Source: Acidobacteriota bacterium (GTDB lineage: Bacteria; Acidobacteriota; B3-B38; Guanabaribacteriales; JAGGZT01). From it: a DNA stretch of 64,000 bases. This document shows positions 584 to 47,276 of the stretch, one piece after another (position 1 is the first letter of the stretch; each line of letters starts with the position of its first letter). Location: assembly GCA_021161905.1 (NCBI GenBank), contig JAGGZT010000050.1:1-64000 (forward strand). The letters run 5' to 3'. Below the pieces are notes generated by a model. That model made no database searches, was not told the DNA's origin, and was given only the letters and a program-made list of their open reading frames with translations. The position numbers and the translations under genes were made by a program.

Positions 584-2471
584 TCTTTGGTTGCGCCAGA
601 AGTTCCCTGAGGTAGGGGGAACTATCCCTCAAGCTTTCGTATTTCCTGGCTATCTCCTCCGCTTTTTTCATCTCCTTTTTCCCTTCTTCCACCCTTCCCA
701 ATAAGAGGTAGAGCTTGCCCAAATCATAATGGCCAGCGATATAGTTTGGCTCAAGCGATATCGCTTTCTTAAGCGTATCTTCCGCAAGGGAGTATTTCCT
801 CAAATCTATATAGAGATAAGCCAGACCCCGGAGGAGAAAGACATCATAAGGACGAAGCGATAACGCCCGTTTATATTCAGCTTCAAGTAGCCGGTATGCC
901 TCCTCAGTGGTGAACCCCTTCTCAAGTAGGGCGAGATAGCAGTTTATCCTTCCGATAATAAAGCGCGGATCAGCAGGAGAGAGCCTTTCCGCCTGGTTGT
1001 AGGAAAGAAGGGCGTAGTAAAATGCCTCAATACTACCCCGTTTTCTGAAGTAACTGAGGTAGAGGTCGGCAAGAGCAGCACGATAATGGGGTTGGATGGG
1101 GATGATTCTTACCGCTTGCCTCAACAACGCGCTTCCGGAAACGATCTCCCCTTTCTCAACCTTAAGGAGCCCCTCCCGATAATATCGTTCGCCGACGAAG
1201 GGGAGTAGCGAACCCAAGACAAAGAGAGGTAGATAGAAGATCACTCCATATAAGAGGAGTATCTTCCCGTTAGAGAGGCGAAGGTTAAGGTTTCTTCCCC
1301 CTTTTGTCTGGGAGGCGAGGATAGCGATGAGGATGAAGGTTAAGTAAAGGACGCCTCGCGAGCGGAAGATGCTCGAAAAGAACGCCTGGAATAACACTGC
1401 AGAAAGGGAGAGAATAGGAGCAAAGGTGTAAGGAGGGGTATCGTTCTTTCTCACGAATCCCTTGACCTCGCGGAAAAGGAGGAATAAAGCGACTATGAGA
1501 AGCGCTCCTCCTATTGCCCCTGTTTCTACAGTAAATTCGAGAAAGCTGTTATGTGCCTGGCGTGGTATCTTGGCGTACCTCCCTATCGCCTCGGCTACAG
1601 GGAAGTTGTAAGGCTCGGCAGCGATCTTGAAATTGCCCAGACCGACCCCAAGTAAAGGATGATCGAAGAACATCCTTAAAGACATCCGCCAGATATCGAT
1701 TCGGGTGAAGGCGTAGATATCGTATCGTTTAATTAGGTGATCTCTCAAGGGATTGGGGATTAGGACCACCGCCAATAGGATGAGGAAAAGGGCGATGAGA
1801 GTGCGTTTTTTCCCCTTAAGAAATGCGATAAGGGCAAGGATGAAGAGGAAGCTAAGGAATCCTCCTCGCGATTTGGTAAGTAGAAGAATGAAGAAAAGAA
1901 ATCCTCCGATACCCCCGAGGAGGACATTGGTTCTCTTCCCCTTCTTTCCTGAAAATAAAAGGGCGATAACTACCCCCAGAGATATGTTAATGAGTGATGC
2001 TAAGTGGTTGGGGTTGATGAAGCTTCCTGATGCCCTATCGAGGTTAAGTACGAAATACTGTCTTAAGGCGATTACCCCTTCGATGAGAGAGACGATCAGG
2101 ATTAGGAGGAAGATAATGGATATTGAGCCCTTCTCCCCGGAGAGGAATCTTCTCACTGCCAGGTAGAGGATAAAGCCGAAGAGGAGATCGAGAGAGGAGA
2201 GAAGGGTGGCGTAAGGATAAGAAGAGTAGAAATAACCCGAGAAGCAAAAAGCGATGAGGACTAAGAAGAGAGTTTCAAATAAGTGAAATTCCGCTTCCCC
2301 TTTTTTCCGGAACATAACGAGAGAAAAGAGAGAAAGGGCGATGATCATAGATTGCACGATGAGGATGGTATTGTTTTCACTCGTCCCACCGCCAAAGGGT
2401 AGAGTGAAGATAAGAGAGGAGAGGATGATAAAGGGGAATAGGTGATTTGTTGATCTTAGTATCCTAACCAT
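561..2471 (-). CDS. O-antigen ligase (Wzy_C) family membrane protein with C-terminal TPR repeats
   Basis: About ten to eleven hydrophobic segments fill residues 10-430. The periplasmic-loop signature RQAHNSFLEFTVETGAIGG is characteristic of the O-antigen ligase/polymerase superfamily (WaaL, Wzy_C, PglL-type oligosaccharyltransferases). The last ~200 residues hold TPR-like helices (for example PNYIAGHYDLGKLYLLLGRV). These enzymes move lipid-linked glycans onto an acceptor at the outer face of the inner membrane. The frame is open from TTG at 2483, but ATG at 2471 directly follows GAGGAGGGAA and is preferred. It starts 8 bases after the stop of a paralogous ligase gene (2480-4240), so the two are likely co-expressed. 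Closeness to a pilin suggests glycosylation of pilin or a surface glycan; the acceptor cannot be read from the sequence. Confidence 0.85.
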   Translation of the reverse strand: MVRILRSTNHLFPFIILSSLIFTLPFGGGTSENNTILIVQSMIIALSLFSLVMFRKKGEAEFHLFETLFLVLIAFCFSGYFYSSYPYATLLSSLDLLFGFILYLAVRRFLSGEKGSISIIFLLILIVSLIEGVIALRQYFVLNLDRASGSFINPNHLASLINISLGVVIALLFSGKKGKRTNVLLGGIGGFLFFILLLTKSRGGFLSFLFILALIAFLKGKKRTLIALFLILLAVVLIPNPLRDHLIKRYDIYAFTRIDIWRMSLRMFFDHPLLGVGLGNFKIAAEPYNFPVAEAIGRYAKIPRQAHNSFLEFTVETGAIGGALLIVALFLLFREVKGFVRKNDTPPYTFAPILSLSAVLFQAFFSSIFRSRGVLYLTFILIAILASQTKGGRNLNLRLSNGKILLLYGVIFYLPLFVLGSLLPFVGERYYREGLLKVEKGEIVSGSALLRQAVRIIPIQPHYRAALADLYLSYFRKRGSIEAFYYALLSYNQAERLSPADPRFIIGRINCYLALLEKGFTTEEAYRLLEAEYKRALSLRPYDVFLLRGLAYLYIDLRKYSLAEDTLKKAISLEPNYIAGHYDLGKLYLLLGRVEEGKKEMKKAEEIARKYESLRDSSPYLRELLAQPKTLFKKER

Positions 2472-2479
2472 TTCCCTCC

Positions 2480-4240
2480 TCAAGGCTGTTTCTTTATCTC
2501 CTCTTCCAATCTCTTTTTTACCTCATCCCGCCACTCACGATAAACCTTCTTGGTGGGATATAGCCTTCGTGCTTCTTCTGCCTGATAATAGGCATTGATC
2601 AGTTCTCCCCTAATGTAGTAGAGCTTGCTCAGTTGGTAGTGGAGGTAGGGGATAAAATAGTTCAGCTCTATCCCTTTCTTATAGAGGGAGATTGCCTGCT
2701 CGATGTCGGACATACTTGGTTTTTTCCCGCCTTCCGCCAGGATGATCTCCGCCTCAAGCAAGGGGTGGTTACTGTTTTCTGGATCGAGGCGGGAGGCGAA
2801 TCGTATCTGAGAAAGAGCTTTTTCGTATTCTCCGTTCTCGAAACTCCTTTTCGCCTCTGAGGCGACGATTTCTCCCAAGAAGGGGATGAAGAAAAGGATT
2901 ATGAGGAGGAATGCAGAGGCTAACAACGCAGTTATTATTATCCCCTTCTTTCTCGGGGAAAGCCTCGGAAGGGGGATGTTTTTCTTCGAAGGGAGACCGC
3001 TTTCCCCAATAAATAGGGAGAAGATCAGCGCTCCTAAAAGTCCCAGGCTGGGGAAGTAGTAGTTGATGTCGATCAGGTTATGGAGAAACAGGATGAAACA
3101 GGAAGTGGCGAGGGCGATGGGGAAGCCAGTTTCAAAGGAGGTTAGGTTTTTCCTCTTTCTTTTGCGGAGTCTGATTATCGCCCTTAAAAAGAGTAGCACG
3201 ATAAAGAGGGTGGGGAGGAGACCTCCAATTGGGCCCATTTCCGCTCCCCACTGGATCAGGGTGTTGTGGGCGAATTGGGTCTCGCCCCATTCTTTTCTCT
3301 TATATTGCGGATAGACAGTGCCGTAATTGCCTAAGCCCACCCCTACTATTGGATGGTCGGCGATTATTCTTCCTCCTATTGCCCAGTTGTCGAGACGGAG
3401 GGCGATGGGGTTCTCTGGAGTGGATATTTTCCAGATAGGCGCTCCCCTCTTCTTGCTTATCGGTATGAGAAGGAGGGTCAACAAAAGGGCTATGCCGATG
3501 GCGATCAGGATGTTTTTCCCCTTTTTTACTAAGAAAAGCAAAGCCAAGGTGGTTCCTCCAACCAGGACGAAAGGACCGCCGAAGGAGCCGGCGAGCACCA
3601 TCACTAAGATAAGCCCAGCGAGGAGGCTGGATGAGAGAAGTAAATGTTTTCTGTCTCTCAGGCTTATCGCGAAATAGAGGAGGGAAAATGGAGAAACGAT
3701 GGCAAGGAAACCGGATAGGGTGGTAGGGAGAGCAAAGGTGGCGAATACCCTTTTCTGAGAAAGCCTTTTTAATATCTCCTCCTTGACCTCTGGTGGGAGT
3801 TTCATCTTTTCCAATATCTCGGGTATAAGGGGAAGGCTAACTGTGTATTGATAGAGGGCGTAGGTCACCACGATGCCAGTAGCAATGAGTATGGCGAACA
3901 GGAAAATCTCCTTTTGTCTCTTATTGGACTTCAAATTGGTGATGAGGAAGAAGATGAGGAAGTAGGTGAGGCTGAGGAAAAGATAATCCCTCGTTTTGGC
4001 GAAATAAACGCTTTCTTTTGAAGAAACGGCAATAAATAGGAAGGTGAGGAGAAGTATAAAAGAATGAGGAAGGAAAAGACATTCCCTTTTTTCGCTTATT
4101 ATCCTCACGCCCTTTATGACGGTGATGATGATGATGATGAGAGTAGCGATTATGAGGTTGGTTTTATAGATCTCTCCAGGCAGAATCAGGTTTAAGAGAA
4201 TGACAGCGAGGATGAGATAAAAGATGAATTTATCCTCCAT
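2480..4240 (-). CDS. O-antigen ligase (Wzy_C) family membrane protein with C-terminal TPR region
   Basis: A second, divergent member of the same family as its downstream neighbour. It has ten or more membrane segments, the ligase-type loop FAHNTLIQWGAEMGPIGG, the conserved HPIVGVGLGNYG motif just before it, and a C-terminal helical TPR region with a basic, Glu-rich end. The frame opens at 4261, but ATG at 4240 sits behind TTAGGAAGGAAA and gives a protein starting MEDKFIFYL, so 4240 is preferred. A terminator at 4271-4311 stands between it and the pilin, so transcription may be by read-through or from an unseen promoter. Two different ligase-type proteins in tandem suggest two acceptors or a polymerase plus a ligase. 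Confidence 0.85.
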   Translation of the reverse strand: MEDKFIFYLILAVILLNLILPGEIYKTNLIIATLIIIIITVIKGVRIISEKRECLFLPHSFILLLTFLFIAVSSKESVYFAKTRDYLFLSLTYFLIFFLITNLKSNKRQKEIFLFAILIATGIVVTYALYQYTVSLPLIPEILEKMKLPPEVKEEILKRLSQKRVFATFALPTTLSGFLAIVSPFSLLYFAISLRDRKHLLLSSSLLAGLILVMVLAGSFGGPFVLVGGTTLALLFLVKKGKNILIAIGIALLLTLLLIPISKKRGAPIWKISTPENPIALRLDNWAIGGRIIADHPIVGVGLGNYGTVYPQYKRKEWGETQFAHNTLIQWGAEMGPIGGLLPTLFIVLLFLRAIIRLRKRKRKNLTSFETGFPIALATSCFILFLHNLIDINYYFPSLGLLGALIFSLFIGESGLPSKKNIPLPRLSPRKKGIIITALLASAFLLIILFFIPFLGEIVASEAKRSFENGEYEKALSQIRFASRLDPENSNHPLLEAEIILAEGGKKPSMSDIEQAISLYKKGIELNYFIPYLHYQLSKLYYIRGELINAYYQAEEARRLYPTKKVYREWRDEVKKRLEEEIKKQP

Positions 4241-4270
4241 TTTCCTTCCTAATGATAGCAATAAAAGGGC

Positions 4271-4311
4271 AAAAAAAAACAGCCCCTTTACGCTCTTAAA
4301 GGGGCTGTTTT
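4271..4311 (-). terminator. Terminator downstream of the pilin gene
   Basis: A long stem (CAGCCCCTTTA paired with TAAAGGGGCTG, loop around 4290-4296) is followed on the minus strand by nine T residues (plus A run 4271-4279). It lies 10 bases after the pilin stop and should make the pilin transcript mostly monocistronic, as expected for a highly expressed pilin. Confidence 0.85.
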
Positions 4312-4321
4312 GGCTTCAAGA

Positions 4322-4783
4322 TCAGGTCTGGACGCCCTGCGGATATACGGTGAACTGCCCATCGAAGAAGATGATGTCATCGTCGAAGCTGGTGGTGGTG
4401 TGGGGAGTAGCAGTCCAGGTTGGGGTGCTGCCATCACGACCACCAGAACCCAGGGAGTAATCCTGCTGGGAAGAGGTAGCGACATAGTGAAGAGCATTGC
4501 CCCAGCCGTCGAGGGTGGGGACCCTTCTCATATAGGTCGGCTGGAGATAGAGCAGATTGGCATCACCTGTCTGGGGATACTTGTTGTAGTCGATCTGATA
4601 GGTCTCAAGCGCAGTTCCTATCGATCTCATATCAGCCATCGTTCTCTTCTGTTTCGACCTCTGAATAGCACTCAGAAGGGACGGAACTGCAATTACCGCG
4701 ATGATCCCGATAATCGCCACCACGATCAAGAGCTCAATCAGGGTAAAACCTTTTGAATTCTTTCTCGCTAATTTGATTAACAC
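4322..4783 (-). CDS. Type IV pilin / GspG-like major pilin precursor
   Basis: The 153-residue protein has a short positive leader ending NSKG, a prepilin-peptidase site between Gly12 and Phe13, the class signature FTLIELLIVVAIIGIIAVI and Glu at mature position 5. The rest resembles the short GspG/pilin globular domain (YQIDYNKYPQTGD, DGWGNALHY) and ends in an acidic loop; it has no Cys. The start is GTG at 4783, nine bases after a strong GGAGGTGA site. It lies next to pilB/T/C/S/R and has a sigma-54 promoter of its own (4835-4850) and a terminator (4271-4311). This makes it the likely main pilus subunit (PilA role). The GspG-like fold leaves open that it serves a type II secretion pseudopilus instead. 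Confidence 0.9.
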   Translation of the reverse strand: MLIKLARKNSKGFTLIELLIVVAIIGIIAVIAVPSLLSAIQRSKQKRTMADMRSIGTALETYQIDYNKYPQTGDANLLYLQPTYMRRVPTLDGWGNALHYVATSSQQDYSLGSGGRDGSTPTWTATPHTTTSFDDDIIFFDGQFTVYPQGVQT

Positions 4784-4834
4784 CTTCTCTCACCTCCCTT
4801 TTTAAGGGTTAAAACCTTCCACCCTTTATTCTTA

Positions 4835-4850
4835 AGCAAGCTTTATGCCA
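4835..4850 (-). promoter_or_regulatory. Sigma-54 (-24/-12) promoter of the pilin gene
   Basis: The minus strand reads TGGCATAAAGCTTGCT. The -24 GG and -12 GC are 12 bases apart, start to start, as sigma-54 requires, and 9 of 10 core consensus bases match (TGGCA, TTGCT). The start of transcription would be near 4824, leaving a leader of about 40 bases with a strong ribosome site before GTG 4783. The sigma-54 activator PilR is encoded at 7386-8762, in agreement with pilin control in other bacteria. Confidence 0.85.
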
Positions 4851-4944
4851 TTATTAAAAACCACCTCATTTATAAGATACATCTTAAATTTAATGAAAAC
4901 AAGAGCTTTTTGGAAGATCCCTCCTCCCCTTAATGAGAAAGAGG

Positions 4945-7389
4945 CTAAAAGTGACGAAATTTGTCACTTATCAGTTGACGAAATCTGTCAACAACGCCTA
5001 TCTTTTTCCTCTCCCTACCCTTTACAAGGAGGGTTATTACAATTCCCAATGCAATGAAGGAGATAATCGCCCCATAAAGGAAGTTGAGAGGACGATAGCG
5101 AAGAAAAACCTTGTGTTTTCCCGGAGGGAGGAGAACGCCCTGAAAGAGGTAGTTTACCCTTATTAGTTTTGACTCCTTTCCATCCACCAATACCTCCCAG
5201 CCGGGGTAGTAGGTTTCGTTCACCACGAGCAGCCTTTTTCCCGGAGCGTTGGTTTTTATAATTATTCTTCCCGGTTGATAGCTTACGAGAATCGCTTCCC
5301 CTCCTTTTTCTTCTCTAAGTAAGTCCATCTTCTCCTCAGCTGGAACTACCGCCGCTTCACCCTTTGCCACCTCGGGTGAGAGGAGCAGGGAAAGTTCCTC
5401 TTCTTTTGATCTCGCTTTAATCAGTTTTTCCACTAAATAACAGCGGGGGAGAACGGAGTTATTGATATATATCTTGAGACTTATGTTCGCTCGGGGATAG
5501 TATTCGGATAGAAGCTTAAGGGAGGGGGAGTTTAAATGTTTGAAAGTTAGCAGGTAGCGCACATTGGTGAGGGAGAGAAGCTTTACCCGGTCGCTTTCGG
5601 GGAGGGAGTCGAAGAAGTTGAGGAGGTCAATATATCTGCTGAGGTTCGATTTGTCTATCTTGGTGTCGAAGGCGTAGGCAAGGTGGTGAGTAACCCCGGT
5701 TGCCGGACGGAGGACATCCCGTTCCCATACGAAACCCCACTCGAGAGAAGGACTGGGTAGGGCAAGCCCTATATGGGGTGGTCTCTTATCCCGGAAGATG
5801 CGGAAGGGTTTTTTATTATTCTCCCGTTCTATTAGGGTGACCGCCCGGGGCTTATAGGTGAAGAATTCAGGGGCTATGGTGGGGTTTATCCCGCAGTTGG
5901 CGGAGAAGAGATCCACTATCACCAAGCCGGTAGCCAAGCCGAAGGTGAGGAGTGAAGGGAATTTCTTCTTCTCCGAGAGGTAGATGATCCCGAACCCAGC
6001 GCTGGCTATGATTATCGCTCGGGATAAGCCCCTCATCACTATTTTGAAAGCGAGTTTAGAAAAGAAAGGAGCGCTTCCCCTTGGAATGTAGATCCGGCTA
6101 ATGAGGGTTTCGATTAGCCCAGGTTTTATCTTTCCGATGATATAAATTGTTCCCAAGCCGAAAATCACGATGGCAAGAATGAGGAGGCAGAGATTTAGTA
6201 TTCTTTTTTCCGTTTCCCTCTTCCTGAAGAGAAGCACCTCAAGCCCTATCCCAGAGAGAAGGGCAAGGGAGAGGATGGTGAGGTAAAACGATTTTCCGGG
6301 GTAGCGGAGGCTCTTTAGAAGAGGAAGGTGGGGATAGATCTTTTCAGCATAAGGGATATATCTTCCCAAGGAGAGAAGGAAACCGAGGGCTCCCAGCCCA
6401 GTGAAGAATAATGCCTTTCTCCTTCCTCGGAGGATGGCGATGATGGCTAAGGCGAGAGGGAAAGCACCGATATAGATACCCAAGATTAGGGGATAACCCC
6501 GATCGAAGAAAACCCTACCCCAGAATTCGGTGAAGTAGCGGTTGGTAGGACTTCCGAAGAAATTTGGTACCAGGAGTTCGATCAATCTCTTTGGGTTGAA
6601 GGAGAAACGGAACAGTTCCGAGTTTGGCAACCTAGCCCAGCGCATTGAATGGCGAAAGAGCTTCAAGGCAGGAAGAAGGAGGATAGACGAAAGGAGGAAG
6701 GATATTACCCCTCCAGCGAGGAGATAGGCGATATTTCCTCCTCGCTTGGCAAGGGGGGTCCTCTCCTCCTTTATGGGAAATAAAGCGTAAAAGCCGAGGA
6801 GGATGAAGATGAGAAGAAGGGCTACATACTCTCCTCCAAGCGTCGCTAAAGCGAGGACCAAGGAGAGGAGAATGAGCTCTCTACGCTTTCTCCCTTCAAT
6901 CAAACGGATAAAGAGAAAGAGAGCAAGCGGAGCCCAGGTGATGGTAAAGAGGGTATTTATGATGTTGCCCAGGGAGAGGATGAATCCACTGAAGGTGTAA
7001 ACCGAGGCGGCGAAGAAAGCCCCCTCGCTCTTCAAACCGATCTCCTTGGCGAGGAGGAAGAGAAAGAGACCTCCAGCGAAGAAGTGAAGGATGATGAGCA
7101 GAGTGAGGGTATGGGGGGTAGGTAGGAGATAGAAAAGGATCATAGGGGGGTAAAGGAGGCTGTAGTTGGGATCAGCGAGGAGTGGTTCCCCAAATGCTTG
7201 GTAGGGATCCCATAAAGGAAGGTTCCCCTTCCTTATCATCTCCGCTGCTGCTTTTTCTATTGGGTAGTGGTTCTGGAATATATCGCGAAGGTAGAAAACC
7301 TCTCCTTGAAAGAGGGAATAAAAAAAGAACAAAGAAAGCAATATCAATCCCAAGGCTAAGAAGAATATCCGTTCCTCTTTTTCCCTCAT
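4945..7389 (-). CDS. YfhO-family large membrane protein, GT-C-like
   Basis: This 814-residue protein has about 13 membrane segments. Its N-terminal outer loop, with [20 protein letters not shown] and [19 protein letters not shown], is the signature of the YfhO family. A long soluble part (about residues 510-770) resembles the YfhO C-terminal region, with [20 protein letters not shown]. YfhO relatives in Gram-positives help glycosylate teichoic or lipoteichoic acid, and the fold is that of polyprenyl-phosphate-sugar-dependent glycosyltransferases; the reaction here is not known. The start codon overlaps the pilR stop by four bases, so it is translationally coupled to the pil operon. The last codons contain the two palindromes ahead of the pilin promoter. 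Confidence 0.85.
4950..4992. promoter_or_regulatory. Two tandem TGAC-N7-GTCA palindromes, likely activator (PilR) sites
   Basis: Two 19-bp inverted repeats lie side by side: AGTGACGAAATTTGTCACT (4950-4968) and GTTGACGAAATCTGTCAAC (4974-4992), centres 24 bp apart. They share TGACGAAATYTGTCA. They stand about 125-170 bp upstream of the predicted sigma-54 start of the pilin, the normal distance for enhancer sites, and fall inside the last codons of the YfhO-like gene. A third copy with the same geometry is at 14598-14614 upstream of pilB. That PilR binds them is inference. Confidence 0.6.
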
Positions 7390-17741: not shown

Positions 17742-18671
17742 GTGAAGATATTGGTTACCGGAGGAGCCGGGTTCATTGGCTCTCACCTCGTGGATCACCT
17801 CATCGACCTGGGGCACGAGGTGGTGGTGGTAGATGATCTTTCCTTCGGTAGAAGGGAGAACATAAATCCAAAGGCTAAATTCTACCAGATCGACATACGG
17901 TCCCCGGAGTTGGGAGAGATCCTTAAAAAGGAACATCCTGACATCGTTAATCATCACGCTGCTCAGGTGAACCTACGCCGCTCGATGGAGGAGCCCCTTT
18001 TCGACGCCGAGGTAAATGCGGTTGGCTCCTTGAACCTCATCCATCAATCGGCTGAGGCTGGGGTCTCGAAGCTGATCTACAGTTCTACCGGTGGGGCACT
18101 CTATGGCGAACCAAAGGTCATCCCTGCCACCGAGGATCATCCGATCGCCCCCCTCTCCTTGTACGGGGTTCATAAGTATATTGTAGAACATTACTTAAGG
18201 CTTTACTCCACCTCTCATAACCTCCGCTATACCGTGCTCCGCTACGGCAATGTTTATGGTCCACGGCAAAATCCAAAGGGAGAAGCAGGGGTGGTGGCGA
18301 TCTTCTCCCTTAAGATGCTTCGCGGGGAACGCCCGGTTATCTTCGGCGATGGGTCGAAGACACGGGATTATGTTTACATAGAGGATGTGGTTCGGGCGAA
18401 TATCCTCGCCCTTGAGGGAGGGGATAACGAGGTCTTCAATGTCGGTACCGGGCTTGAGGTTACCGACCAGGAGATATTCGATAAGGTGCGGGAGAAGGTT
18501 GGTTGCGATATAGAGCCGATATATGGGGAGAAACGGCCCGGTGAGATAGACCACATCGCCCTTGCCTATACCAAGATAAAGAAAACCTTGGGCTGGGAGC
18601 CCAAGGTCTCACTCGATGAGGGAGTATCCCGCGCCGTCTCTTACTACCGGGAGAACATAGACCTATTCTGA
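17742..18671 (+). CDS. NAD-dependent sugar-nucleotide epimerase (GalE/extended SDR family)
   Basis: 309 residues with the Rossmann motif TGGAGFIGSHLVDHL at the N-terminus, the STGGALYG Ser/Thr position, and the catalytic YGVHK (Y-x3-K) near residue 145. The C-terminal GDGSKTRDYVYIEDVVRA and FNVGTG belong to UDP-glucose 4-epimerase-like enzymes. GTG start at 17742, two bases after the activator stop and six bases behind GGAGG, so it is co-transcribed with the dehydratase genes although it suggests sugar-nucleotide supply. The 3' end overlaps the convergent thioredoxin-like gene by nine bases. Confidence 0.9.
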   Translation: MKILVTGGAGFIGSHLVDHLIDLGHEVVVVDDLSFGRRENINPKAKFYQIDIRSPELGEILKKEHPDIVNHHAAQVNLRRSMEEPLFDAEVNAVGSLNLIHQSAEAGVSKLIYSSTGGALYGEPKVIPATEDHPIAPLSLYGVHKYIVEHYLRLYSTSHNLRYTVLRYGNVYGPRQNPKGEAGVVAIFSLKMLRGERPVIFGDGSKTRDYVYIEDVVRANILALEGGDNEVFNVGTGLEVTDQEIFDKVREKVGCDIEPIYGEKRPGEIDHIALAYTKIKKTLGWEPKVSLDEGVSRAVSYYRENIDLF

Positions 18672-19154
18672 CTTCCCCCTGGCTAATATCTGGGCTAAGT
18701 CCTCCTCGATGGAGATCTCCGGGGTCTCGACTATCCTTCCTATCTCCTTTCCCTGCTGGAAGAGGATGAAGGTTGGAACCCGTTCTATCCCCCTTTTTTT
18801 CGCTAAGCCCTCTGGATCGTGCTTTTTTCTGTCTACGCCGATGTAGATCACCTTGAAGTTCGGGTTATTTGCTTTCTCCATCACCTTGATGAACCGGGGT
18901 ACCTCTCGCTGGCTGTCCGAGCACCAGCTTCCGTAGAAGACCTCGATCACCGTTGGCTTGTCGTACGATTTTAGGAACTCGATCGCCCTTGGTGCCGGGG
19001 AGTAGAGGTTTGCCTTGGCGCGGAAGGAGCTATCGACCGCGAGTACTCGATTTAGATCTGCCCTTCCGATGAGCATCGGCTCCTTCTTCGCGCGGGCACA
19101 ATTGACCGATAAGAAAAGGCTGAGTATTGCTGCCATCAATAGAAACTTTTTCAT
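18663..19154 (-). CDS. Exported thioredoxin-like protein with a WCSDS active site
   Basis: 163 residues. The N-terminus MKKFLLMAAILSLFLSVNCA is a signal peptide; the Cys at position 19 could be a lipoprotein site, though Asn before it is unusual. A thioredoxin fold follows: VIEVFYGSWCSDSQREVPRF with the second active-site Cys replaced by Ser, and the cis-Pro loop RVPTFILF. A CxxS site cannot work as a normal dithiol oxidoreductase; it fits a monothiol, isomerase-like or binding role. No partner genes are adjacent. Confidence 0.8.
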   Translation of the reverse strand: MKKFLLMAAILSLFLSVNCARAKKEPMLIGRADLNRVLAVDSSFRAKANLYSPAPRAIEFLKSYDKPTVIEVFYGSWCSDSQREVPRFIKVMEKANNPNFKVIYIGVDRKKHDPEGLAKKRGIERVPTFILFQQGKEIGRIVETPEISIEEDLAQILARGKSE

Positions 19155-19264
19155 TTTATCACCTCATTTCTTTGGTTTATTGTTAGTAGTATATCCCAAA
19201 ATTTGGAAGGATGGTATAGAATTGGAAATATCGAGGGGTTAAGGGTTATACTGGAGGGCAAGTG

Positions 19265-19909
19265 ATGGAATGTAAATTAAAGAGTAGGATAATACTGGCT
19301 GTCTTCCTTTCCCTTCTTTTATTTACCGTTTTTTCTGCCAAAGCCGATGAGAGAAAGAAGCGGTTCGAGGTTCTATTTTCCGCCGGTGCTTCCTATGCCA
19401 CTTCCCGGCTGGGCTTCTCGCCAGGTGTTGGTTTTTCTTACTATATCACGAACAATATGGCTCTTTCCTTCGACTTCGGGGTAGCCTACCGAATCCCTGA
19501 ACTCGACTTCCGCCAGTACTGGATACCAAAATTAGAAGCGGCTATAACCCATATAACGGCAACGGTAGATAGTCAGTATCGTTTGCTTTCTTCGCTTAGC
19601 GTCGAGTACGATTTTGCCTTCCTTTCCCGGGTGGAACCCTTTATCACTACCGGTATCGGCTGGTGCTGGGATCGGGTGGACATTGAACTGTTTCACTTAT
19701 ATTTCTCAGATCCTCAATTGGTTGCGCCCGAAGCTTATTTGGAAAACATCAAATATCGCGATAGCGGTTCTTATCTTTTCCTCATCGGCGGTGGGATCAG
19801 ATATCCGGTGAGGGATAACGAGGTGTTGAAGATTATGGTTCGGACTCTTCATCCTGGTGGTGAATTTGCCACTTATCAGATAACAATCGGCTGGGGTTTT
19901 AAATTTTAA
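19265..19909 (+). CDS. Outer-membrane beta-barrel protein, copy A1 of a two-gene cassette
   Basis: A 214-residue exported protein with a signal peptide ending near SAKA, then alternating hydrophobic strands and a terminal aromatic signature ending GWGFKF, as in small outer-membrane barrels. It is clearly paralogous to the protein at 45932-46588: GASYATSRLGFSPGVGFSYY and IPELDFR are shared almost exactly, and both end GWGF(K/R)F. Start ATG 19265 lies seven bases behind GGAGG; a GTG at 19262 is also in frame. Function unknown. Confidence 0.75.
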   Translation: MECKLKSRIILAVFLSLLLFTVFSAKADERKKRFEVLFSAGASYATSRLGFSPGVGFSYYITNNMALSFDFGVAYRIPELDFRQYWIPKLEAAITHITATVDSQYRLLSSLSVEYDFAFLSRVEPFITTGIGWCWDRVDIELFHLYFSDPQLVAPEAYLENIKYRDSGSYLFLIGGGIRYPVRDNEVLKIMVRTLHPGGEFATYQITIGWGFKF

Positions 19910-19924
19910 TAACGAGAGGTCGAA

Positions 19925-20578
19925 ATGAGAATATTAAACAGCCTACTAAATAAGAAGTTGGTTTTTCCTCTTATGTTTTTCCTTGCTTCTTCAGTGGTTA
20001 CTTTTGGCGGCGATAAGGAGAAGAAGAACGAGCTCACCGGTTATGTAGGCACCTACATTTTCCTAAGTGAACCTAAGACCCACAGTTTCCTCTCTTTTAA
20101 AATTGAATACGAGAGAAAACTCTCAAATCGTGTTTCCTTGGCGGTATCAATGGGGTATGTCCCTTTGAAGTGGTCTGAATTATCGGACTCCGCCTCTTAC
20201 GACTTTTACAAGAGATTTGGTGATTCCTTTGATTACAATCAAGTTTCGAAGCCGGGGACTGAACTGATTTTCGATTTCGGTGCCTATATCTACTTCCCCC
20301 TGCCGAATAAACATATCGACCTCTTTCTCTACTTTGGCAACAGTTACTATTGGATGCGCGAGAGTCATATTGCACTTGATAATGAGGATCTTCATACCGA
20401 GCGCATCACAAATTCGGATTCCTTTTACTCCTTTTTAGATTTGGGCTTTGGATTTAGATACAGATGTAATGAACGCTATTCCATGAGAACCGAATGGAGG
20501 TGGAAAAACCTTCGTTATCTTTTTGCGGGAGAGGAGATAACCTGGGACTTCCTCCTTGGCTTAAGCTACCAATTTTAG
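19925..20578 (+). CDS. Outer-membrane beta-barrel protein, copy B1 of a two-gene cassette
   Basis: 217 residues with a signal peptide (hydrophobic run LVFPLMFFLASSVVTFGG) and a barrel-like pattern ending LLGLSYQF with terminal Phe. It is paralogous to the protein at 46611-47276: shared blocks are FLSFKIEYERKLSNRVSLAV versus FISFHLEYERRLSRRLSLAI, FDFGAYIYF versus FDFGCYIYF, and NERYSMR versus NERYSIR. It starts 15 bases after A1, so the pair is one transcript, closed by a terminator at 20630-20666. Base use looks AT-richer than the neighbours by eye. Confidence 0.75.
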   Translation: MRILNSLLNKKLVFPLMFFLASSVVTFGGDKEKKNELTGYVGTYIFLSEPKTHSFLSFKIEYERKLSNRVSLAVSMGYVPLKWSELSDSASYDFYKRFGDSFDYNQVSKPGTELIFDFGAYIYFPLPNKHIDLFLYFGNSYYWMRESHIALDNEDLHTERITNSDSFYSFLDLGFGFRYRCNERYSMRTEWRWKNLRYLFAGEEITWDFLLGLSYQF

Positions 20579-43903: not shown

Positions 43904-44279
43904 ACCACTTGTATTTTAGGTTCAATCCTTATTTATGTCAAGGAAAATGGGTTTAGGGTTTTAGTAAGGGGTCGGGGTGATATTTTTCAAAATAGCATAA
44001 TGCAGGGACAGCCGCAAACGGCCTGTCCGTTTCTCATCTTTTGGCTGCCTCCTTCCCTGTTAGCGGAATTAATCTAAAATCAGTAAGAAGATAGCCTCGC
44101 ATCTCCAAGAAAATTTCCGAACCGGATCAGGCGATTTTTTAATTTTTTTTTCTTGACATACCTTAAAATTGAGGCTGATAGTATAAGTATAATATTTTCC
44201 AGAAGGAGCAGGAAGTAATATTATTATACTAGTTGAAGTAAGGGAGAGATTAACTAACTAGTTTTGGAAGGAGGGATTT
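43904..44279. other. Non-coding AT-rich stretch between tRNA-Lys and the Cys-rich protein gene
   Basis: No gene seen. A hairpin (GGACAG/CTGTCC, 44007-44029) is followed by an AT-rich tract with TTGACA at 44153 and several TATAAG/TATAAT boxes near 44182-44193; spacing to TTGACA is too long (23 or more) for a normal promoter. An inverted repeat ACTAGTT/AACTAGT is near 44229-44262. A strong ribosome site GGAAGGAGGG (44266-44275) ends the region. Confidence 0.5.
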
Positions 44280-44312
44280 AAGAGGTGGAAATTAAAGCTC
44301 TTAGTAGTAGGT

Positions 44313-45932
44313 TTGTGTATGGTCGTTTTTGGCTCGATTTTGGTCTCCTTTCAAGAGATCCCTAAGCCTAGTGCAGGCGGTCCATGCGAGTACTATTGTG
44401 TGATAACCAAAGTTCTTCAGAATCAGAATAGGAGAATGCTGACAGGAAATGTGAATACTGAATGTGAGTGGTGGCTGCCATCTCCTCATACCACCACTTG
44501 GACAAACTTATGCGTTAATTCGAATCTGGGTCTTCGTGTATCGGGTGGTTCTCAATTCATGGGATGGCACCCAGGCGAAGGGTGGAATTGTTGTCACCAG
44601 TGGTGGCCCACTCCCAATTGTGTTTATTACAACTATGCCGCCTGTACCCAGCAATTTACGACGCATGGTCCTTGCCAGCATGCTTCAGGTGAGCTCTGGA
44701 TTGATACCGACGAAGATATGGGATGTATTCTCTGTAGAGGTTATGTAGTAACTTCCACGGGAAACTTTATGTGCATCTATGACGATGATGGTGGTGTGGG
44801 GGATGATTTTATCCAGAGGATGAACTTTCCCGATTTAAGTGTTACATTACCAAATGACATGGGCAAGGGCGGGTGTAGCTCTTACGTCTACTCTGGATGG
44901 GAAACTCCTTCTTCGTGGCAAGACCCTGGTTATATGATTGTTAAATCTGAGCTCCGGCTTGGTGCCCGTGCAGCGCTTAAGAAAATTTGCGAAGGACCGG
45001 AGCCGGAACCCCAAAGGATGATCATCGGGAGTGTTAAAAATCACCTAACTACAAATAATCATTCTCCGATTACCGTTACACCTCATTCAACGGAGAAGAA
45101 GCTAATAAAAGGCTGCATAAAAGATAAGATCACCCTTCAGCCGATTAAAGGGGTCAAGGTTTCGGTTATAAAGGGAAAAGCGACCAGTGAGGATGAGAAA
45201 GCAAAAGCACCGATAATAACCGTTACCAATGACACCGGTGATTTCTACCTTGAGTGCGATTACGACGATGCTATCCTGGTGGTTGATGCTGAAGGGTACG
45301 CCATTGCTAGGAGGGCATTGATTTTCAATAAAGGGGAGGCGGTCAAGTATAAGGAAATTGAGCTTTCGCCAGCATCGATAGCAAAAGGAGGAATAAGGGA
45401 TAGAGTTACTAAAGCTCCGGTTAAAGCCGCCAATGTTATAATGGCGATGATTTCTCCTTTTGAGGCTGAAATAAAGACAGTAGCTACCGATGATAGCGGA
45501 TCATACGAGGCGGAGAGGTTGCCCGATGGAAAGAAGTATATAGTGATCATGGCCGAAGGCTATAACGCTGAGACAAGGGAGTTTGAGTTAGCGAGTAGCG
45601 AGGTTAGGTCCGGGGTTGACTTTGAGCTTACTAAGGCAGGGAGTATCTCCGGGTATGTGGTGGATAAAAACGGTAATCCGGTAAATGGGGCTCATATAGA
45701 GATTGTTTATAAGGATCTGCTTCCCTCTTCTCCGCTCAAGTTTAATTATTGGCACACCGGCACCATAGAGACAATATATGAAGGGTTTTTCTATGTGGGT
45801 AACATCCAGTCGTGGAAGAGATTTGTGATTGAGGTGACGCACAATGATTATAAACCGTTTAAATCTCCACTCCTAAGTCTTAAGCCCGGAGAGGAGGCAG
45901 AAGGGTTAAAGATCTTATTGGAGGGTAAGTGA
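44313..45932 (+). CDS. Exported Cys-rich protein with carboxypeptidase-regulatory-like domains; start codon apparently lost
   Basis: The readable protein has an N-terminal domain of about 200 residues with some fourteen Cys and many aromatic residues (CEYYC, NCC, GPCQH, CILC). It is followed by three repeats of the carboxypeptidase-regulatory type (GCIKDKITLQPIKGVKVSVI, GGIRDRVTKAPVKAANVIMA, GYVVDKNGNPVNGAHIEIVY). These are beta-sandwiches often seen in secreted proteins. The best in-frame start is TTG 44313, which falls inside a signal peptide. The frame from 44280 reads KRWKLKLLVVGLCMVVFGSI, a perfect signal, seven bases behind GGAGGG but with no ATG. Its stop overlaps the next start by one base, so it is coupled to the two barrel genes. 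Function unknown. Confidence 0.7.
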   Translation: MCMVVFGSILVSFQEIPKPSAGGPCEYYCVITKVLQNQNRRMLTGNVNTECEWWLPSPHTTTWTNLCVNSNLGLRVSGGSQFMGWHPGEGWNCCHQWWPTPNCVYYNYAACTQQFTTHGPCQHASGELWIDTDEDMGCILCRGYVVTSTGNFMCIYDDDGGVGDDFIQRMNFPDLSVTLPNDMGKGGCSSYVYSGWETPSSWQDPGYMIVKSELRLGARAALKKICEGPEPEPQRMIIGSVKNHLTTNNHSPITVTPHSTEKKLIKGCIKDKITLQPIKGVKVSVIKGKATSEDEKAKAPIITVTNDTGDFYLECDYDDAILVVDAEGYAIARRALIFNKGEAVKYKEIELSPASIAKGGIRDRVTKAPVKAANVIMAMISPFEAEIKTVATDDSGSYEAERLPDGKKYIVIMAEGYNAETREFELASSEVRSGVDFELTKAGSISGYVVDKNGNPVNGAHIEIVYKDLLPSSPLKFNYWHTGTIETIYEGFFYVGNIQSWKRFVIEVTHNDYKPFKSPLLSLKPGEEAEGLKILLEGK

Positions 45933-46588
45933 TGAAATTTAACTTAAGGGGGAGGATAGCGCTCATTATACTTCTCTTTACTTTTCCCTATTTTGCTTTT
46001 TCTGCTTATGCCGGGGAGAAGGAGAAAACGCCGCGGTTTGAAATCTTATTCTCCGGCGGCGCCTCGTATGCCACCTCCCGCGTCGGTTTCTCGCCCGGGG
46101 TCGGTTTTTCTTATTATCTTAGAAAGAACCTTGCTCTTTCACTCGACTTCGGCGTAGCCTTTAGTATTCCCGAGCTTGATTTCCGTGAGTTCGGGATACC
46201 GGTTGGTGAAGCTGTCCAACATACTGAGATAAGAGTGGAGAATCAATACCGTCTATTTTCTTTTCTCAGTGCCGAGTATTCTTTCGATATTTCCCCTCAA
46301 GTTAAGCCTTTTCTTACCGCCGGCGTTGGCTGGTGTCGTGATTATGCCGGCTTTTCTGTTTTTACCTGTGGCCGGTACTATCCGGACCCTTCGTGGTTCG
46401 TTTGGTACGAAACTAATATCGGAGATTATAAGCATCGTGAGGATAGGTTCCCTCTTCTCCTTTTTGGCGGTGGCATCAAATATTATGTGAGGGAGAAAGA
46501 TTTCCTCAAGGTTACCCTGCGGGGATTAGGTTTTGGAAGCGATTTTACCACCTACCAATTGATCGTCGGCTGGGGTTTCAGGTTTTAA
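45932..46588 (+). CDS. Outer-membrane beta-barrel protein, copy A2 of the two-gene cassette
   Basis: 218 residues, signal peptide ending near SAYA, barrel-like strands and terminal GWGFRF. It is the paralogue of 19265-19909 (FSGGASYATSRVGFSPGVGF, IPELDFRE, FGGGIKYYVRE). ATG 45932 overlaps the stop of the Cys-rich gene (TGATG) and lies seven bases behind GGAGG; the frame also allows GTG 45929. Confidence 0.75.
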   Translation: MKFNLRGRIALIILLFTFPYFAFSAYAGEKEKTPRFEILFSGGASYATSRVGFSPGVGFSYYLRKNLALSLDFGVAFSIPELDFREFGIPVGEAVQHTEIRVENQYRLFSFLSAEYSFDISPQVKPFLTAGVGWCRDYAGFSVFTCGRYYPDPSWFVWYETNIGDYKHREDRFPLLLFGGGIKYYVREKDFLKVTLRGLGFGSDFTTYQLIVGWGFRF

Positions 46589-46610
46589 AGATATAAAATG
46601 GGGAATAAGG

Positions 46611-47276
46611 ATGGAAAAATCAAATAGATTGCTCAAGAATAGAAAAATAAGCTTTCTTCTTCCCCTTTTCATGTTTTTGCTTTTCATTTCTTTATCGGTG
46701 AAAGCAGGGGAAGGAAACGGAGATGACAAAAATAGTATAACTGCCTATCTCAGTGGTTATTTTTATTGGGAAGAGACAGAAGGCAGTTTTATTTCCTTTC
46801 ACCTGGAGTATGAACGGAGGTTATCCCGCCGCCTTTCCCTTGCAATATCAGTGGGATATACACCCTTATTGAACTATTACGAAAATTCAGGTTTAGCCTG
46901 GGATAGTTTTCACCAAAAGGTCGGCGATAACTTCAGCCAGATCTCAGATGGTTCTCTGCTGATCTTTGATTTCGGCTGTTATATCTATTTTTATCAGTCT
47001 GATAATGAAGAATTTTTTGCCTATGTCGGAGGGAGCACCTGTTTATCAAAGGAAAACTATGAGATGATCGATAATAAATCTCCTCTTACTGAGAGCTATT
47101 CCTTCTTGCATTTCTCCATTTTCTCCCTTGGTGATATGGGAATAGGTTACAGTTATAAGATTAATGAGCGTTACTCCATTAGAGCTGATTTAAAGATGCT
47201 AGATCTTGCACTCTTTTTTGTAGGTCAAGCGCGGCCTGCGCCCCGAGTGAGTATTGGCTTATCCTACAGTTTTTGA
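46611..47276 (+). CDS. Outer-membrane beta-barrel protein, copy B2 of the two-gene cassette
   Basis: 221 residues with a signal peptide (LPLFMFLLFISLSVKAG) and barrel-like strands, ending GLSYSF. Paralogue of 19925-20578. It follows A2 by 22 bases. Codon use is AT-rich by eye and unlike purA just downstream. No clear terminator follows. Confidence 0.75.
   Translation: MEKSNRLLKNRKISFLLPLFMFLLFISLSVKAGEGNGDDKNSITAYLSGYFYWEETEGSFISFHLEYERRLSRRLSLAISVGYTPLLNYYENSGLAWDSFHQKVGDNFSQISDGSLLIFDFGCYIYFYQSDNEEFFAYVGGSTCLSKENYEMIDNKSPLTESYSFLHFSIFSLGDMGIGYSYKINERYSIRADLKMLDLALFFVGQARPAPRVSIGLSYSF

Follow-up and report, generated by a model that had tools for sequence, protein, structure and literature searches.

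Bacterial selenoproteins provide the closest described comparison for the locus reported here. A 2026 review recognizes 119 selenoprotein families and subfamilies, and in the known prokaryotic members selenocysteine (Sec) occupies active or redox sites (PMC13188914). Among the listed families, the TonB-dependent receptors of the FCYXU type and the GSU2204 barrel selenoproteins set a precedent for outer-membrane-associated proteins that contain Sec (PMC13188914), although in these the barrel itself carries the Sec, while here a separate secreted domain would do so. The locus lies in a 64,000-nucleotide stretch of DNA (the window) from genome G000, and encodes a Cys-rich domain joined to carboxypeptidase-regulatory (CPR) domains, followed by two small barrel genes. 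Its relatives in the sister family f2 (genomes G001, G002 and G003) resemble known bacterial selenoproteins in having a UGA on an invariant Cys column, SelA, SelB and tRNA-Sec in the lineage, and SECIS-like hairpins directly downstream, one of the three being too weak for the published model, but differ from them in that the Cys-rich domain has no apparent thioredoxin fold or UxxC/CxxU motif, and in that the protein is predicted to be secreted along with a CPR partner. As for the latter, the C-terminal half of the window protein consists of three CarboxypepD_reg/transthyretin-like domains (PF13620), but unlike in other proteins of this kind they are tied to one Cys-rich or Sec partner, to which they are fused in the window. 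Barrel 1, finally, recalls the 8-strand barrels OmpA, OmpX, Ail and NspA in size, strand number and best structural matches, but, unlike them, it belongs to a duplicated pair of genes that adjoins the Cys-rich/CPR module, and its sequence matches OMP_b-brl only marginally. A search of an f2 homologue against NCBIfam returned nothing, and none of the 119 families, as compared by description, fits. Judging from the sequences, this is probably a new selenoprotein family, with Sec in f2 and Cys in the window, whose product would probably serve a redox function in the envelope, with a CPR protein as its partner.

The frame of the window gene extends without interruption from 44262 to a stop at 45930-45932, giving 550 codons if read from 44280 (Table 1). 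The first-pass annotation had described a protein with about fourteen Cys and three CPR domains. The domains are indeed there, as PF13620 matches in three stretches at 72.7 bits (Pfam cut-off 32.3; E=3e-20); the protein is also Cys-rich as claimed, but the count was too low, since we find 17 Cys, 15 of them within residues 1-257. The stop/start overlap reported with the downstream gene is real as well: the TGA of the frame and the ATG of barrel 1 form TGATG at 45930-45934. The Cys-rich domain found no match in Pfam, NCBIfam or the PDB, and no homology to a solved structure. Its structure prediction, a check that had been proposed earlier, gave a pLDDT of 34 when the domain was modelled alone with AlphaFold, and the model was not used. 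A scan of genome contigs gave nothing beyond a weak Bdellovibrionia match, 35 residues long and confined to the CPR part, and a plasmid search gave no match.

Table 1. Features of the locus and of the first barrel pair, in window coordinates.
Feature	Position	Strand	Basis or remark
Shine-Dalgarno-like GGAAGGAGGG	44266..44275	+	sequence; no standard in-frame start until TTG 44313
Signal-peptide-like N-terminus KRWKLKLLVVGLCMVVFGSILVSF...	44280..44370	+	sequence; the C66 paralogue starts with a normal GTG at the equivalent place
Fused Cys-rich + CPR gene	44280..45932	+	sole uninterrupted copy in G000
Cys-rich domain, new family; invariant C40, C62, C105, C149	44376..45017	+	alignments
Cys149 codon TGT	44724..44726	+	same alignment column as the in-frame TGA in the three f2 homologues
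Three CarboxypepD_reg (PF13620) domains	45102..45929	+	Pfam match; separate gene in relatives
Barrel 1, 8-strand OmpA/OprF/OmpX-type outer-membrane protein	45932..46588	+	TGATG overlap with the Cys-rich/CPR gene
Barrel 2, second small barrel-like protein of the pair	46611..47276	+	homologue (19925) matches OMP_b-brl weakly
13-codon remnant of the partner C-terminus, GNIEGLRVILEGK followed by the stop	19224..19265	+	compared with the C-termini of other copies
First barrel pair, paralogue of 45932-47276	19265..20578	+	

The beginning of the gene deserves a comment of its own. Namely, the start had earlier been placed at 44280, but the codon there is AAG, and no ATG, GTG or TTG occurs in frame before the TTG at 44313. 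Since a good Shine-Dalgarno sequence and a signal-peptide-like stretch (KRWKLKLLVVG) nevertheless flank the place where a start codon is missing, that codon is damaged, misassembled or unusual, and because a standard one is lacking, the expression of the window copy is uncertain.

The class comprises four genomes, three of which belong to f2. Within f2, two distinct neighbouring genes encode the Cys-rich and the CPR protein, and barrel genes adjoin them, in the order barrel, Cys-rich, CPR in both G003:C97 and G003:C306, and Cys-rich, CPR, barrel in G002:C50. In other words, homologous units do exist in relatives, and the genes keep together within the order, so that the earlier reading holds insofar as a unit of the surface or envelope, including a secreted Cys-rich protein, does recur. 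Our search of the phylum, which covered 396 genomes (a second draw added none), yielded five further Cys-rich homologues, all five with an adjoining CPR gene, whose CarboxypepD_reg domain is detected by Pfam in G290, G010, G391 and G321 and by eye in G174; no barrel pair was seen near any of the five. Another pair of Cys-rich and CPR genes, with CarboxypepD_reg confirmed, stands behind a DsbA-like gene on an IMG/VR contig. As judged from gene order, the phylum-wide constant unit is the Cys-rich protein plus the CPR protein, encoded by separate adjacent genes in nearly every context other than the window. Since the Cys-rich gene stands beside a separate CPR gene in the relatives, the window frame is a fusion of both.

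Several details of these neighbourhoods may be recorded here. In G321 (L106 4516-7833), a long repeat protein (about 1100 residues) ends in the Cys-rich domain at its C-terminus, and a CPR-like gene comes next. A small protein whose membrane-like stretches are rich in glycine is encoded near the pair in three loci (L107 5910-6557, L108 5678-6184, L132 2510-2971), one of the three with a weak glycine-zipper match, and it is possible that this protein is a third partner. In L132 (IMGVR_UViG_3300044961_001037, 1070-5163), with L133 being similar, the genes for the DsbA-like, small, Cys-rich and CPR proteins are flanked by two 286-bp direct repeats (94% identical) within apparent phage genes. This block may reflect cargo transfer or an assembly chimera.

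What sets the f2 homologues apart is a single in-frame TGA, which occupies the identical place in all three (G003:C97, G003:C306 and G002:C50; two genomes of one family). An alignment of ten sequences has no more than four invariant Cys columns, and one of these, which in the window is Cys149, holds the TGA; the UGA is thus aligned with a conserved Cys of the homologues. Such a Sec/Cys position is not something that the window by itself could have revealed. An artefact of scoring Sec as Cys can be dismissed, as the same column results when the TGA is entered as X. All five distant homologues carry Cys at this position, as does the IMG/VR homologue (GGCLNM). Consequently, Cys was probably the original residue and Sec a later gain of f2; loss of Sec in the window's family is a conceivable alternative. 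Beyond the TGA, the frame stays open for 83-87 codons, up to a TAA stop (base-shuffle P 0.0006-0.0018), and coding constraint continues, with dN/dS values after the TGA (0.34, 0.54 and 0.46) similar to those before it. A change of the genetic code in f2 is ruled out, because TGA otherwise serves these genomes as a regular stop, ending 44 of 131 long ORFs, including the CPR genes of the same operons. This same ordinary usage is what one would expect if the TGA were a true stop here too, with the conserved downstream part being a remnant or a separate product. However, a true stop would not lead one to expect an identical position in three copies, a following stretch that is both open and constrained, or an invariant Cys at that very place in all other homologues, and we regard it as improbable.

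The sequences downstream of the TGA bear on the same question. In the bSECIS model, a hairpin has a loop of 3-9 nt and a stem of 4-16 bp, with G in the first two loop positions, is spaced 16-37 nt from the UGA, and has an energy of -7.5 kcal/mol or lower (PMC13188914). Two of the three loci fit it: G003:C97, with the loop GGTTC at a spacing of 17 and -8.9 kcal/mol, or alternatively with the loop GTT at a spacing of 18 and -10.8 kcal/mol, and G003:C306, with the loop CGTGA at a spacing of 26 and -8.4 kcal/mol. The hairpin of G002:C50 (GGTGA-GGTCT-TCACC, spacing 17) is of the kind seen in C97 but reaches only -4.8 kcal/mol against the limit of -7.5, and this weak signal is a point in favour of a true stop. 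In E. coli, the fdhF SECIS likewise carries a GGUCU loop, and its spacing is almost identical. Upon synonymous recoding, the hairpin is equalled or bettered in 0.3% of cases for C97, 0.4% for C306 and 12.5% for C50. Rfam, run with permissive thresholds around the TGA loci, returned nothing relevant.

Moreover, the genes needed for Sec are distributed accordingly. SelA is present at about 580 bits in all three f2 genomes, which speaks against a true stop. SelB scores above its cut-off in two of them, G001 and G002, with none found in G003 (79% complete). In G001 there is a tRNA-Sec of 71.9 bits, also called by ARAGORN; none was found in G002. In total, SelA is seen in three, SelB in two and tRNA-Sec in one of three incomplete f2 genomes (completeness about 80% for G001 and G003, and 93% for G002). 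In G000 (2.09 Mb in 72 contigs, 100% complete, 0.27% contamination), searches for SelA, SelB and tRNA-Sec all came back empty, and with a TGT at 44724 the window copy itself is not a selenoprotein. Taken together, the pattern means that the family with the TGA has Sec genes, whereas the window's genome, which carries Cys, is without them. The gene upstream of SelB, considered as a SelA candidate, proved to be glucose-6-phosphate isomerase, with SelA found elsewhere. Fragments of the tRNA-Sec 5' half, 36-42 nt long, lie beside the same neighbour genes at G001:C140:6723-6764 and G003:C178:1-36, and were not counted as genes on account of their length.

What could such a protein do? The account that we favour, and hold to be rather probable as a whole, is the following. 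Two secreted proteins that are normally paired, a Cys-rich domain and a chain of transthyretin-like CPR domains, are fused in the window. In f2, the fourth invariant Cys would be replaced by a UGA-encoded selenocysteine with the SECIS hairpin behind it, while the window lineage, with no detectable Sec machinery, carries Cys at 149. Cys/Sec149 would be the reactive residue of a redox protein in the envelope, acting through exchange with another invariant Cys or through reduction of an oxidant; the CPR partner may hold the Cys-rich protein at the surface, and the barrels would be neighbours that do not export it. We find a reactive residue 149 the most likely reading because the known bacterial selenoproteins have their Sec at redox or catalytic sites (PMC13188914), but the invariant residues form no UxxC or CxxU motif, and the redox role is inferred, like Sec insertion, physical pairing and location. 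What the sequences themselves show is the pair, its fusion, the position shared by Cys and TGA, the distribution of the machinery, and the decay of the partner next to intact barrels. The main rival to a reactive residue 149 is a structural disulfide role. Namely, the four invariant Cys could form two disulfides of a purely structural binding or adhesion protein, with CPR and barrels making up an adhesive complex devoid of catalysis. CPR domains are usually structural, the small barrels do resemble surface proteins of the Ail/OmpX type, and the alignment is without a UxxC/CxxU or thioredoxin signature, all of which would suit such a protein. However, as Sec occupies active or redox sites in known prokaryotic selenoproteins (PMC13188914), a purely structural Sec would be unusual, and we consider this reading unlikely, if worth keeping in mind. 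More tentatively still than our favoured account, and at slightly less than even chances, one can envisage a two-component extracytoplasmic system for selenium-based redox chemistry or metal handling, in which a secreted Sec protein with an apparently non-thioredoxin domain works with a dedicated CPR partner, the window carrying a fused Cys version. If true, this would extend the listed selenoprotein families by one whose domain is undescribed, extracytoplasmic and without a thioredoxin-type motif, and whose f2 genes a plain gene caller would truncate at the UGA. What is more, the Cys fusion of the window and the Sec versions of f2, with the machinery absent in one case and present in the other, would offer a clean comparison of Sec and Cys in one protein, and CPR would be a specific partner to test.

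This leaves the barrels, by which, according to the first-pass annotation, a disulfide- or metal-rich surface protein is exported, the two being dedicated to that task. Barrel 1 scores just under the curated cut-off of OMP_b-brl, and its model (mean pLDDT 56, two sequences) shows eight strands, with OmpA, the OprF N-domain, Ail, NspA and OmpX as best structural matches. In G000 there are six barrel pairs and one barrel-1 fragment, but the Cys-rich/CPR gene is open only in the window's 44280 copy, being broken, cut to a C-terminal remnant or missing beside the other five pairs. In particular, C66 encodes the Cys-rich and CPR parts in separate ORFs, the CPR part having its own signal-peptide-like start and a frameshift near 1300; C2 retains approximately the last 150 residues of the partner and C12 the last 50, while C71 has no recognisable remnant. 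The first copy, at 19265, had been said to lack the partner, which is correct for an intact one, but its last 13 codons remain (GNIEGLRVILEGK and the stop) and are joined to the first barrel pair by the same TGATG overlap. Trees of barrel 1 and barrel 2 both group C66 with C2 and C50b with C12, and the two barrels agree with a Mantel r of 0.68 (p 0.026). Therefore, duplication probably involved the whole unit together, with several losses of the partner, which makes the barrels independent of it. Export by dedicated barrels could draw on this duplication as a block and on the operon with its stop/start overlap, but barrel 1 is akin to 8-strand OmpA/OmpX/Ail proteins, five of six pairs persist without an intact partner, and the five distant homologues have no adjoining pair; an export-type barrel strictly tied to its substrate is not what we see, and we deem this reading very improbable. 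Most likely, the small barrels are OmpA/OmpX-like neighbours duplicated with the unit, and not exporters. A thioredoxin-domain lipoprotein-like gene (18663-19154, minus strand) adjoins the first barrel pair. Finally, contigs often end in or beside Cys-rich/CPR genes (G001:C3, C142 and C154; G003:C92 and C306; G000:C66 and C2), pointing to assemblies broken by repeated, near-identical copies.
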